From: Rhodovarius lipocyclicus
Lineage (GTDB): Bacteria > Pseudomonadota > Alphaproteobacteria > Acetobacterales > Acetobacteraceae
Assembly: GCF_009900765.1 (NCBI RefSeq)
Contig: NZ_JAAABL010000010.1
Coordinates: 1-64,000 of the forward strand
Length of the DNA: 64,000 nucleotides
Reading direction: 5' to 3'
Part shown: one piece after another, positions 18,640 through 23,126 of the stretch
Layout of the letters: each line of letters starts with the position of its first letter
Numbering within the stretch: the first letter of the stretch is position 1
Made by a program: the position numbers and the translations under genes
Notes under the pieces: generated by a model
What the model saw: the letters and a program-made list of their open reading frames with translations, nothing else
Database searches by the model: none
What the model was told of the DNA's origin: nothing

Positions 18640-19527
18640 CTACGCCGCCCGCGCCGCCGGCACGCCGCGCATGCGCCCGCCCGGCGTCGCCCCGGGCACG
18701 GCCGCCGCGAAATCCGCGGCATCCAGCAGCTTCGCCCAATCCGTCCCGGTCTCCACCCCCATGCGGGTGAAGGCCCAGACCACATCCTCCGTCGCCACAT
18801 TGCCCGTGGCGCCGGGCGCGTAGGGGCAGCCGCCGATGCCGCCCGCCGAGGTGTCGATCACCCGGCAGCCGGCCTCATAGGCAGCGACCGCATTGGCCAC
18901 GCCCATGCCGTAGGTGTCATGGCCATGGAAGGCGAAGCGGGGCCCGTGGGTCTCGATCGCCCAGCCGATCAGCCGCTTCACCTGGTCGGGCGCCGCATTG
19001 CCGGTGGTGTCGCACAGGGAGATCTCCATGGCGGCGTTCAGCGGCGCGACGCGGTTCACCAGCGCCTTCACGGCGTCCTCCGGCACCACGCCCTCGAAGG
19101 GGCAGTGGTAGCAGGTGGAGAGGTTGAAGCGGATCTTCACATGCGCCGGCGTCTCGCTGACCAGGGTGGAGAGTTCGGCCAGGCACTCCTCGATGCCGCG
19201 GTTCAGGTTGGCGCGGCTGTGGCCCTCGGTGGCGGACATGAAATAGCCCAGCCGGTGCGCACCCGCCTGGAGTGCCGCGTCGAAGCCGCGCCGGTTCGGC
19301 ACCAGCACGGTGCATTCCAGCCCCTCCAGCTTCAGCGCCTCGGCCAGCACATCGCCGGTATCGGCCATCTGCGGGATGGCGCGCGGGGAGACGAAGCTGC
19401 CCACCTCCATCCGGCGCAGCCCGGCGGCGTAAAGGCGGCGGACGAGTTCGATCTTGGTCTCGGTGGGGACGAAGCCCTTGATGGGCTGCAACCCGTCGCG
19501 CGGGCTGACCTCGGAAATGGCGATCAT
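18640..19527 (-). CDS. Hydroxymethylglutaryl-CoA lyase family protein
   Basis: 295 residues, a TIM-barrel lyase. SPRDGLQ (residues 8-14) supplies the Arg and metal-binding Asp, FHGHDTYGMG the His ligands, and GGCPYAPGATGNVATED the signature loop with the active-site Cys. Classic members split 3-hydroxy-3-methylglutaryl-CoA into acetoacetate and acetyl-CoA in leucine catabolism. Relatives in bacterial clusters act on other 3-hydroxyacyl-CoA dicarboxylates. Its ATG overlaps the TGA of the upstream CoA-transferase gene (ATGA), so the transferase probably makes the CoA thioester that this enzyme cleaves. No other leucine-degradation gene is adjacent, which leaves the substrate open. Confidence 0.9.
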   Translation of the reverse strand: MIAISEVSPRDGLQPIKGFVPTETKIELVRRLYAAGLRRMEVGSFVSPRAIPQMADTGDVLAEALKLEGLECTVLVPNRRGFDAALQAGAHRLGYFMSATEGHSRANLNRGIEECLAELSTLVSETPAHVKIRFNLSTCYHCPFEGVVPEDAVKALVNRVAPLNAAMEISLCDTTGNAAPDQVKRLIGWAIETHGPRFAFHGHDTYGMGVANAVAAYEAGCRVIDTSAGGIGGCPYAPGATGNVATEDVVWAFTRMGVETGTDWAKLLDAADFAAAVPGATPGGRMRGVPAARAA

Positions 19528-20708
19528 GTTGTTTCCCCCAGCAATTCCTTGAACACATGGTCATTGTGCGCGCCCGCGGCGGGGCCCGTCCAGCGCACCA
19601 TGTCGCGCGCCGGGGTGCCGTCGAAACGGAAGGGGGCGGCGGGGTGCAGCACGGGGCCGATCAGCGGGTCCTCGACCTCCATCACGATGTCGCGGGCCCG
19701 GAAATGCGGGTCCTCGGCGCAATCCTTCATGTCGTACAGGCGCGAGCACGGCACCTCGGCGGCTTCCAGCACATCCTCGGCTTCCTTGGCGGTGCGGGTG
19801 CGCGTCCAGTCGGCGATGGCGCTGTCCAGCAGTTCCACATTCTGGCAACGGCCGTGGTTGTTGGCCATGCGCGGGTCGGCCGCCAGGTCCGGCCTGCCGA
19901 TCGCGGCCATCAGCCGGCGGAAGATCAGGTCCGAATTGCCGGCGATGCACAGCCATTTGCCATCGGCGCAGGGGTAGGTGTTGGTGGGGGCGGCGGTCTT
20001 GATGGCGGCGCCCTGCGGCTGCCGCACCCAGCCGAACAGGCCGTATTCGGGCAGCATCCCCTCCATCAGGCTGAACACGGAGGATACGAGGTCCACATCC
20101 ACCACCCGGCCTTCATGGTTGCCCGCCTTCACGCCCCAGCAGGCGGAAACGAGGGCCATCGCGGCATACATGCCAGCCAGGTCGTCGCTGATCGAAACCC
20201 CGCAGCGCGGCGGCGGATAGTCGGTCTGGCCCGGATTGGCGGTCAGGTGGCGCAAGCCGCCCATCGCCTCGCCGATCGCGCCGAAGGCGGGCTTGTCGCG
20301 GTACGGCCCGTCCTGGCCGTAGCCGGAAACCCGGGCGATGATCAGCTTGGGGTTGATCGCGTGCAGGGCGGCGGGGCCCAGGCCCAGGCGCTCCAGGTAT
20401 CCGGGGCGGAAATTCTCCACCAGCGCGTCGGCGCGGGCGCACAGCTTGCGCAGCTTCGCCTTGCCGTCGTCGCTTTTCAGGTCGAGCGTGACCGACAGCT
20501 TGTTGCGCCCATGCACGCTGAACCACACCGGGTGGCCGTCCTTCAGGCTGCCCCAGCCGCGCACCGGGTCGCCCTCGGGCGGTTCCACCTTGATGACCTC
20601 CGCCCCCAGATCGGCCAGCAGCCGGGTGGCGAAGGGGGCGGCGATGTAGTGGCCGAGCTCGACCACGCGGAGGCCCGTGAGGGGCAGGTTTTTTGCGGCG
20701 TGCGACAT
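19524..20708 (-). CDS. CaiB/BaiF class III CoA-transferase
   Basis: 394 residues from the ATG at 20708. Family III transferases move CoA between acids through an aspartyl-CoA intermediate. Visible motifs are LRVVELGHYIAAPFATRLLADLGAEVIKVEPP at the N-terminus, LKSDDGKAKLRKL, VENFRPG, and GVSISDDLAGMYAA with the probable catalytic Asp175. The C-terminal GRPDLAADPRM and PHFRARDIV segments are typical. It is translationally coupled to a downstream HMG-CoA-lyase-type enzyme, suggesting activation of a hydroxydicarboxylic acid such as a citramalate- or 3-hydroxy-3-methylglutarate-like compound. A frame open further upstream to 21575 has no transferase homology and is ignored. Confidence 0.92.
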   Translation of the reverse strand: MSHAAKNLPLTGLRVVELGHYIAAPFATRLLADLGAEVIKVEPPEGDPVRGWGSLKDGHPVWFSVHGRNKLSVTLDLKSDDGKAKLRKLCARADALVENFRPGYLERLGLGPAALHAINPKLIIARVSGYGQDGPYRDKPAFGAIGEAMGGLRHLTANPGQTDYPPPRCGVSISDDLAGMYAAMALVSACWGVKAGNHEGRVVDVDLVSSVFSLMEGMLPEYGLFGWVRQPQGAAIKTAAPTNTYPCADGKWLCIAGNSDLIFRRLMAAIGRPDLAADPRMANNHGRCQNVELLDSAIADWTRTRTAKEAEDVLEAAEVPCSRLYDMKDCAEDPHFRARDIVMEVEDPLIGPVLHPAAPFRFDGTPARDMVRWTGPAAGAHNDHVFKELLGETT

Positions 20709-20953: not shown

Positions 20954-21145
20954 ATGGACGAGAACACCGCCGAGACCCTTGCCCTCGCCGCCGGCCTGCA
21001 CAAGGCCTGGGCGAACCACCGCGACGATGTGCTGGCGGCCCTCGCCACGCAGCAGGCCCAGCGCGGCCGCCTGCCGCGCACGCGCAACCCGGCCGATGAG
21101 CCCGCCCCCGCCTGGTCCCTGCCGAAACCGGAGCCCAAGGCATGA
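20954..21145 (+). CDS. Small AtzG/GatC-like amidase subunit (putative)
   Basis: 63 residues from the ATG at 20954. The stop overlaps the ATG of the following amidase (ATGA), so the two are translationally coupled. The protein has an N-terminal helical part (TLALAAGLHKAW, DDVLAALATQQAQRG) and a C-terminal DEPAPAWSLPKPEP stretch. This resembles the small DUF4089/AtzG-type subunits that accompany AtzE amidases and adopt a GatC-like fold, ending in an E-P-A-P motif. The assignment rests on size, position and this weak pattern. If right, it stabilises or delivers the amidase. Confidence 0.6.
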   Translation: MDENTAETLALAAGLHKAWANHRDDVLAALATQQAQRGRLPRTRNPADEPAPAWSLPKPEPKA

Positions 21146-22485
21146 GCACAGCCCCCTGGACCCTGACCCTGGCCGAGGCCTCCGCCCGCATCGCCGATGG
21201 CGCGCTGAAGCCCAGCACCCTGCTACGCTCCTGCCTGGAGCGCGTGGCGGAGGTGGAACCCCGCCTGAACGCCTGCATCCGCATCCTGGAACAGCCGGCG
21301 CTGGCCGCGGCCGAGGCGCTGGACCGCGAAACCCCGCGCGGCCCGTTGCACGGCATCCCCGTCGGCATCAAGGACATCATCGACATCGCGGGTGAGATCA
21401 CCACCTGCCATTCCGCCCAGTTGCTGGACAACCGGAAGGCCGAGGACGCCATCGTGGTGGCCCGGCTGCGCGCGGCGGGGGCGGTGTTCCCGGCCAAGCT
21501 CTCGACCCATGAATTCGCCATCGGCGGGCCGGCCTTCGACCTGCCCTTCCCGCCCGCGCGCAACCCGTGGAACACGGGCCATCACCCGGGCGGCTCCTCC
21601 TCGGGGTCCGGCGCCTCGGTCGCGGCGGGGATGTTCCCGGCGGCGCTGGGCACGGATACCGGCGGCTCGGTGCGCCACCCGGCCAGCCATTGCGGCATCG
21701 TCGGCCTGAAGCCCACCTATGACCTGGTGCCGCGCGCGGGCGTGTTCCCGCTGGCCTTCACCCTGGACCATGTGGGCCCGCTGACCCGCACGGTCGAGGA
21801 TTCGGCCATCATGCTGGAAGCCATGACCGGCAACGCCTATCGCGGCGAGATCGCGGGCGGGCTGTCCGGCCTGCGCATCGGCTATGTCCGGAATTTCCAT
21901 GAGAAGGACCAGCCCGCGCACCCCGAAATGGCCGCGTCGCTGGATGCGGCGGCGGCCCTGCTGGCCGCGCATGGTGCCACGGTGCGCGATATCGCCCTGC
22001 CCAGCCTCAATGACTTCGCCGTGGTGAACCGCACCCTGCTGGGGGCCGAGAGCGCCTCCATCCACGAATTCTGGCTGCGCGAGGCGCCGGAGAAATACGC
22101 GGGCGTCACCCGCCGCCGCCTGCTGCCCGGCATGTTCGTGACGGGCGCCGATGTGGTGCAGGCCCAGCGTCACCGCGCCAAGCTGCTGGCCGCCGTGCAG
22201 GCCGCCTTCGAGGAGGTGGACATCCTGCTCTGCGCCTCCTCCATGGACCCCGCCGCGCGCATCGACGATGTGCCGGAGGTGGAGCGCACCTATCCCCGCC
22301 AGGCGCGCACCGCCTTCAACGTGACCGGCCATCCGGCGATCACGCTGATGTCGGGCCTGTCCTCCGGCGGGTTGCCGCTGTCGGTTCAGTTCGTCGCCCC
22401 CGCCTGGCGGGAGGCGCTGCTGTTCCGCGCCGCCGCCGGATATGAGGCGCTGGCGGGCTTCAAGGGCATGCGGCCGCCGCTGTGA
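21142..22485 (+). CDS. Amidase signature family hydrolase (AtzE/GatA-like)
   Basis: 447 residues with an intact Ser-cisSer-Lys triad: Lys77 in GIPVGIKDII, Ser152 in GGSSSGSG, and nucleophile Ser176 in GTDTGGSVRHP. GLKPTYDLVPRAGVFPL and DHVGPLTRTVED follow as in GatA/AtzE. Members hydrolyse amides such as biuret derivatives, aryl amides or Gln in tRNA-dependent transamidation. No GatB is near, so a catabolic or biosynthetic amidase is more likely than GatCAB. It is coupled upstream to a small AtzG-like protein and downstream, by a TGATG junction, to a phosphorylase-like gene. Confidence 0.9.
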   Translation: MSTAPWTLTLAEASARIADGALKPSTLLRSCLERVAEVEPRLNACIRILEQPALAAAEALDRETPRGPLHGIPVGIKDIIDIAGEITTCHSAQLLDNRKAEDAIVVARLRAAGAVFPAKLSTHEFAIGGPAFDLPFPPARNPWNTGHHPGGSSSGSGASVAAGMFPAALGTDTGGSVRHPASHCGIVGLKPTYDLVPRAGVFPLAFTLDHVGPLTRTVEDSAIMLEAMTGNAYRGEIAGGLSGLRIGYVRNFHEKDQPAHPEMAASLDAAAALLAAHGATVRDIALPSLNDFAVVNRTLLGAESASIHEFWLREAPEKYAGVTRRRLLPGMFVTGADVVQAQRHRAKLLAAVQAAFEEVDILLCASSMDPAARIDDVPEVERTYPRQARTAFNVTGHPAITLMSGLSSGGLPLSVQFVAPAWREALLFRAAAGYEALAGFKGMRPPL

Positions 22486-23126
22486 TGCTGGTCGCCGTCG
22501 GTTTCCAGGCGGAGGCGGCGCTGCTGCCCCCGGGTATGGCGGTGGTCTGCGCCGCCGCCAACCCGGCGCTGCTGGCGCGCCGGCTGGCAGCCCTGCCCCG
22601 GCCCGAACGCATCCTGAGCTTCGGCGTGGCGGGCGGGCTGGACCCCGCCTTGCCCAGCGGCGCGCTGCTGCTGGCCTCGGCGTTGATGGCACCCGAGGGC
22701 CCCTATACCCCCGACGCCGCCTGGACCGCCCAGCTGGCCGCCGCCACCGGGGCGCGCCCCGTGGTGCTGGCGGGCTGCGACACGCTGATCGCCTCGGCGG
22801 CGGAAAAGGCCGCGCTGCGCGCCCGCACCGGCGCCGCCGCCGTGGATATGGAAAGCGCCGTGGTGGCCCGGCACTGCGCCTCACTGGGCATTCCCTTCGC
22901 CGTGCTGCGCGCCGTGGGCGACACCGCGCATGAGGCCCTGCCCCCCGCCGCCGCCCATGGGCTGGATGAGGACGGCAACCCCGCCCCCTGGCGGGTGCTG
23001 CGCGCGCTGCTGCGCCGCCCGCAGGATCTGCCCGGGCTGATCCGCCTGGCGCGCCGCACCGGCACCGCCCTGGCCGCGCTGAAACCCGCCATCGGCGCCG
23101 CGCTGAAACACTCCGCCACAGGCTGA
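22485..23126 (+). CDS. Nucleoside-phosphorylase superfamily protein (HpnG-like)
   Basis: 213 residues starting at an ATG that shares one base with the amidase stop (TGATG). The fold is of the purine-nucleoside/MTA phosphorylase superfamily: MLVAVGFQAEAAL, RILSFGVAGGLDP, GALLLASALMAPEGPY, AVDMESAVVARHCASLGIPFAVLRAVGD. The DMES segment is the substrate-contacting core and the LRAVGDTA strand is typical. The pattern resembles HpnG, the hopanoid-associated phosphorylase that removes adenine from adenosylhopane, but no other hopanoid gene is in the window. A general nucleosidase remains possible. Confidence 0.78.
   Translation: MLVAVGFQAEAALLPPGMAVVCAAANPALLARRLAALPRPERILSFGVAGGLDPALPSGALLLASALMAPEGPYTPDAAWTAQLAAATGARPVVLAGCDTLIASAAEKAALRARTGAAAVDMESAVVARHCASLGIPFAVLRAVGDTAHEALPPAAAHGLDEDGNPAPWRVLRALLRRPQDLPGLIRLARRTGTALAALKPAIGAALKHSATG

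Follow-up and report, generated by a model that had tools for sequence, protein, structure and literature searches.

A probable two-subunit amidase in Rhodovarius lipocyclicus with a GatC-like small partner encoded by an overlapping gene

The DNA analysed here (the window, 64,000 nucleotides of contig NZ_JAAABL010000010.1 from Rhodovarius lipocyclicus) holds a short gene that runs into the gene of an amidase-signature enzyme, with an HpnG-like gene behind them and two genes on the opposite strand ahead of them (Table 1). A first-pass annotation of this DNA had described a 63-residue gene with an EPAP motif near its end, an ATGA overlap between this gene and the amidase gene, and a TGATG junction between the amidase gene and the next one. 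All three are confirmed. The small gene begins with the ATG at 20954 and stops at 21143-21145, and EPAP occupies residues 49-52. The amidase ATG lies at 21142, with a GGAG directly 5′ of it, inside the small gene, and the final A of the amidase stop codon TGA (22483-22485) is also the first base of the HpnG-like start codon ATG.

Table 1. Genes and features at the amidase locus, in positions of the window
Feature	Position	Strand	Remark
HMG-CoA lyase-like gene	18640..19527	-	adjoins the CaiB-type gene; upstream on the opposite strand at 21/68 family places
CaiB-type CoA-transferase gene	19524..20708	-	divergent; upstream on the opposite strand at 42/68 family places
Small gene, 63 aa, putative GatC-like small subunit	20954..21145	+	profile kinship, conserved pairing
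ATGA overlap of small-gene stop and amidase start	21142..21145	+	
Amidase-signature enzyme, 447 aa	21142..22485	+	PF01425, invariant catalytic residues
HpnG-like phosphorylase/nucleosidase gene	22485..23126	+	lineage-limited neighbour, not a core part

The small gene accompanies the amidase gene throughout the family. A search (E<=0.01) found relatives of the small gene in 49 of 200 family genomes, and at each of the 30 loci kept from it, counting that of the window, the amidase gene follows directly 3′ with a 4-base overlap. Starting from the amidase instead, orthologues (E<=1e-130) occur at 68 places in 66 of the 200 genomes, and every one of these places was inspected with its flanks. Two are truncated where the contig ends, which leaves 127 and 77 upstream bases. 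At the 66 places with readable upstream DNA the small gene is always present; the two genes overlap by 4 bases at 61 of the 68 places and are spaced by +3, +3, +8, +8 and +59 at five, the small gene at the last of these (L140) having a degenerate tail. This in-frame, in-place retention across the family puts the small gene beyond chance.

In a search of 385 genomes across the class, the first small profile had 26 matches (E<=0.01), spread over 25 genomes. Beyond the window, 11 matches from other families of the class adjoin an amidase, the property by which these loci were selected, and here the spacing is a 4-base overlap in 8, 8 in two and a gap of 1 in one. The remaining 14 matches, with E from 4.5e-4 up and no amidase within 1.5 kb flanks, were set aside as chance. 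All 75 small proteins compared have G14, A29 and E49, and L15, P50 and P52 are nearly invariant. Compared with its closest relative the small gene has a dS of 0.34 and a dN of 0.17 (63 codons), and with the next relative a dS of 1.18 and a dN of 0.27 (56 codons); for the amidase and its closest relative the values are 0.46 and 0.09. The small gene is therefore under moderate purifying selection, weaker than that on the amidase.

Standard family models say little about the small protein. Neither Pfam nor NCBIfam has a model that matched it. The first-pass annotation had likened it to AtzG-type DUF4089 proteins, which we take to be the AtzG-like family PF13318. None of the 75 small proteins matched PF13318 or the GatC models at E<=1, and a PF13318 search of the host genome gave no match at the small gene, the pair that does match lying elsewhere, so this placement is not upheld. 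The NCBIfam names returned for the 75 relatives were at chance level. Weak matches to unrelated Pfam or NCBIfam models, such as UBA_2, PRK06546 and CM_2, were discarded.

The small protein is predicted (pLDDT 90.6, pTM 0.60) to form helices at residues 3-12, 16-21 and 23-36, followed by an extended tail with EPAP that has almost no regular structure. Three helices and an extended tail are the layout to be expected of AtzG and, in its N-terminal part, of GatC. On structural similarity, the property by which the first-pass annotation had proposed to judge its idea, a Foldseek search of the PDB with the model of the 63-mer gave no match (one unrelated row, E 5.7), and VIA-align of this model returned nothing. 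A PDB sequence search with the profile of 75 small proteins yielded 16 rows, mostly repeat or helical proteins, with no GatC or AtzG among them.

More can be learned from the partners of other amidases. We examined the loci of 80 named amidase relatives, down to 30% identity, and of 24 amidases of the host genome. These loci gave 13,348 six-frame segments, in which an iterated HMM search seeded with the small family alone converged on nine matches (E<=0.01). All nine are next to an amidase: seven lie just upstream of it and the other two (L192 and L197) just downstream. Four come from the same clade (L177, L178, L179 and L193), and three are overlapping genes upstream of more distant amidases (L180, L181 and L185). 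At L192 and L197 the match lies directly 3′ of one amidase gene and 5′ of another; in such tandem arrangements, with a partner gene between or after the amidases, one partner might serve both. The iterated profile found no GatC or AtzG sequences at E<=0.01, so the tie of this family to GatC and AtzG rests on bridging partners and on profile-profile scores.

A second profile was built from 14 partners that had been chosen by eye among the overlapping upstream genes before profiling. It found partners outside its own set (L194, L240, L200 and L186), recovered L192 and L197 as the small family had done, and reached true GatC genes at L229 (E 7.6e-7) and L243 (E 8.5e-7), with no match at the loci of 12 outgroup amidases of the host genome. 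Since selection by eye can bias a profile, the unbiased iterated search weighs more. An alignment of 22 rows (A5), composed of the 14 partners, five newly found genes and three fused segments, was compared with 177,635 PDB sequences, and its top two matches were GatC (E 2.2e-4 and 1e-3). In 299 genomes the A5 profile made 12 matches outside the host genome, of which eight are GatC beside GatA and two are partners of other amidases. The other two of the 12 have no amidase nearby (L276 and L278; E 1.5e-6 and 3.8e-6); these strays, and one given by the GatC profile (E 0.0013), set a bound on the trust to be placed in such E-values.

Profile-profile comparison gives a similar picture. The small family scored 19.45 against GatC in hhalign, in a match that spans only 36 columns; this score was reached by none of 150 column shuffles (maximum 12.3) and by none of 126 windows taken from unrelated families in these neighbourhoods (maximum 17.6). 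Against AtzG the score was 16.1, with a maximum of 15.0 among shuffles; three of the 126 unrelated windows did better than this, at 16.2 to 17.6 with the small profile, so the direct link between the small family and AtzG is not significant. Low hhalign scores do not argue against kinship in this setting, because AtzG and GatC, which are described as kin in PMC6219798, score only 17.43 against each other. A PDB search with the AtzG set found the solved AtzG (6c62_C, E 1.7e-8) and not GatC. The iterated profile aligned with AtzG nearly end to end (24.3, probability 45), and it scored 30.1 against the bridging partners, a comparison that is not independent since row L180 is common to both sets. 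Taken at the level of profiles, it is well supported that the small protein is kin to other amidase partners and, mainly via the bridging partners, to GatC. By the same comparisons it is to be counted among the GatC-like helper proteins, a dispersed group that for the most part has no names.

In some relatives the partner is part of the amidase itself. The 14-partner profile identified C-terminal fusions at L183, L187 and L188, where the amidase frame extends past its usual end and finishes in a GatC-like segment with a DEP motif, and where no small gene was found upstream of the fused amidase. All three come from metagenome bins, assigned to Rhodospirillaceae, Betaproteobacteria and Proteobacteria, respectively.

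These arrangements bear on whether the small protein matters as a protein. The small gene might be a short leader whose translation sets the expression of the amidase, with a product that has no role in the enzyme; its fixed position, with the 4-base overlap in 61 of 66 cases, and the GGAG that it carries before the amidase ATG would suit such a leader. We regard this as very unlikely. The protein sequence is itself conserved, down to the three residues invariant in 75 proteins, and some relatives lie downstream of the amidase or are fused to its C-terminus, where a leader role is impossible. That the partner is fused in some relatives and downstream in others argues for a role of the protein.

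Further variants of this kind were seen in passing. An amidase of the host genome (L159) ends in a shortened partner segment, and the A5 match there contains a stop; the amidase at L190 has a C-terminal extension that resembles a fused partner cut short before the EP tail. Another host amidase, L154, already has an upstream partner and is followed just 3′ by a second partner-like segment (G000:C17:25686-25796, L260; E 4e-5). A small partner gene of the GatC-like type accompanies at least six of the 24 PF01425 amidases in the host genome, namely GatCA, AtzGE, the window pair, L154, L156 and L157, so that one genome holds several two-gene amidases in parallel.

The larger gene of the pair encodes a clear member of the amidase-signature family, with a PF01425 score of 325.3 bits against a curated cut-off of 27. 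K77, S152-S154 and S176 are invariant in 45 amidase sequences, and we take them to be the catalytic lysine, cis-serine and serine positions of the family. Among named loci, the closest amidases are those of an Acetobacteraceae bacterium, at 65% identity, and of a Roseomonas sp., at 61%, and a plasmid collection contained no match to the amidase at E<=1e-100. The predicted structure has a pLDDT of 95.7. Foldseek placed GatA chains first and AtzE at rank 11, and VIA-align gave a Z of 56.6 for GatA 2df4_A (rmsd 1.8 over 440), 55.0 for malonamidase E2 (1.7 over 410) and 54.2 for AtzE 6c62_A (1.6 over 429). With scores so nearly tied, the fold names no substrate.

The best NCBIfam model for the amidase is AtzE, at scores below the cut-offs (234.2 bits against 425.75 for TIGR02715 and 249.7 against 461 for NF006631). 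A quick tree with 144 amidases puts the window amidase in a clade of 42 rows (SH-aLRT 100), apart from GatA (26 rows, 100) and AtzE (10 rows, 100), which join each other at 97. Judged from this tree, the amidase is a branch separate from both AtzE and GatA. In the set of 125 amidase rows that holds these three groups, which is not a random sample since its rows were chosen for relatedness to the query, partners recur in many branches and are present for 98 rows: 80 were labelled in the tree, another four have theirs upstream, two have it downstream and three have it fused, and for nine more it is GatC. No partner was found for the other 27.

The resemblance to AtzG and AtzE deserves a closer comparison. 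AtzG is described, in PMC6219798, as an obligate, non-catalytic partner of AtzE, which is insoluble alone. The host genome has a true AtzG of its own (G000:C57, 31.4 bits, above the PF13318 cut-off), in an AtzG-AtzE pair that is separate from the window pair and also has an ATGA overlap before AtzE. As in AtzG-AtzE (1-carboxybiuret hydrolase; PDB 6c62 and 6c6g), the window has a small gene, an ATGA overlap and then an amidase-signature gene; in both cases a helical region is followed by an EPxP-type tail, and both pairs are related to GatC/GatA.

One could conclude that the window pair is itself a genuine AtzG-AtzE pair, with 1-carboxybiuret or a close analogue as its substrate. The agreement in gene order, size and overlap with the host's own pair speaks for it, as do the rank of AtzE among NCBIfam models and the nearly end-to-end alignment of the iterated profile with AtzG. 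We nevertheless consider this conclusion highly improbable: unlike AtzG, the small family has no PF13318 match in any of its 75 members, the amidase falls far under the AtzE cut-offs and in another clade, AtzE forms a clade of its own joined with GatA, and the host is already equipped with an AtzG-AtzE pair. The AtzE-like identity given in the first-pass annotation fails on the AtzE cut-offs and on this grouping. The amidase and its probable adaptor are best read as falling in a class broader than AtzG/AtzE.

Two other systems are informative. GatA is the closest solved relative of the amidase by sequence and is among the closest by fold; the partner profiles reach GatC, and several GatC proteins carry VEP after their helices. 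Unlike GatC, which has about 95 residues, the small protein of the window has about 60, and the host genome has its own GatC-GatA (L153), distinct from the window pair. The amidase also shares its fold and catalytic residues with the single-chain enzymes malonamidase E2, peptide amidase and the UMG-SP urethanases (Z about 48 to 55), for which we know of no partner protein.

The first-pass annotation had suggested that the phosphorylase-like gene behind the amidase possibly forms one unit with the pair, acting on a nitrogen-rich or nucleoside-derived compound. This gene scores 171.9 bits against the HpnG model TIGR03468, below its cut-off of 187.1; HpnG is still its best model, and HpnG-like matches are below this cut-off in 16 of the 20 genomes with a match. 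It is a single copy, the only one in the host genome, which also has HpnH (517.5 bits, on contig C18). The host's only HpnG-like gene thus sits apart from hpnH, overlapping an apparently unrelated amidase gene. HpnG is described as stripping adenine from adenosylhopane (PMC12583986).

The small gene, the amidase and the HpnG-like gene could still belong to one pathway for a nucleoside- or hopanoid-derived compound. The TGATG junction is in keeping with this, and HpnG adjoins the amidase in four of four genomes of the host genus with both places known and in three of three genomes of genus g45. The adjacency is limited to these two genera: HpnG lies directly 3′ of the amidase in only seven of 30 family loci, and in G004, G006 and G007, genomes of three other genera with both places known, the single HpnG is on another contig than the amidase. 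With HpnH present and a sole HpnG-like copy, an ordinary hopanoid role accounts for the gene, and we find a shared pathway barely credible. As the gene is HpnG-like and adjoins the amidase only in two genera, a nucleoside-like shared substrate is not supported. Its position is best explained as chance gene order.

No neighbour of the pair is as conserved as the CaiB-type gene. Its nearest NCBIfam model, succinate-glutarate transferase, gives 220.6 bits against a cut-off of 750. At one locus (L091) the CaiB-type and HMG-CoA lyase-like genes are both downstream of the pair, and at the 11 loci from other families of the class neither has a match above 40% identity close to the pair. The substrate would be a carboxamide, and the neighbourhood suggests that its acid product may perhaps be handed on to the CaiB CoA-transferase encoded on the opposite strand. 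That the acid is used in a CoA-dependent way is a fair guess for the family and not for the whole class, because these neighbours were not found at the class-level loci. Distant relatives of the pair at L147 and L149 adjoin genes that resemble subunits of the xanthine dehydrogenase family (named by eye), hinting at other substrates elsewhere.

In our view the two genes very probably encode one heteromeric amidase, composed of a 447-residue catalytic subunit and a 63-residue, non-catalytic, GatC-like adaptor. What makes a two-part enzyme so probable is the fixed overlap with the amidase gene combined with membership in the GatC-like helper group; the physical complex, the adaptor role and the translational coupling are parts of this reading that we infer. 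The larger subunit would carry the amidase-signature catalytic residues and do the chemistry. The adaptor would pack its N-terminal helices on the amidase, with the conserved EP-containing tail running along it. Much as AtzE depends on AtzG, the amidase may depend on this adaptor to fold, to stay soluble or to assemble. The ATGA overlap would couple translation, so that both subunits are made in step. The earlier interpretation survives in its core, a GatC-like subunit of a two-subunit amidase, which is now backed by the conserved pairing, by iterated profiles that match only beside amidases, by the C-terminal fusions and by the link to GatC; its assignments to AtzG/DUF4089 and AtzE and its nucleoside substrate are given up.

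Partners of this kind are already known in GatC and AtzG. Pfam and NCBIfam scans gave no meaningful match for the small family, the position variants or the fusions. Such partners were unreported in the literature searched on AtzG/AtzE, DUF4089 and GatC-like amidases, a search that covered mostly openly available papers, and a search on GatC-like proteins with amidases turned up only the yeast GatFAB.

A wider proposal seems to us evenly balanced between true and false. A GatC-like small subunit may be ancestral and general in the whole GatA-related branch of amidase-signature enzymes, beyond GatCAB and AtzEG. Many ‘single’ amidases would then be heteromers, and dozens of lineages would have fast-evolving, unannotated partners of 55-80 residues, encoded upstream with a 4-base overlap, encoded downstream or fused to the C-terminus. 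Annotation now treats the amidases of this branch as single proteins, and they are presumably expressed as such. If a tiny overlooked partner is needed, this would provide a simple cause for failed expression or missing activity in enzyme screens, and the missing partner gene could be named for each amidase. In the fusions, where adaptor and enzyme form one chain, the placement of the one on the other can readily be tested, and AtzG would no longer be an oddity but one case within a broad class.
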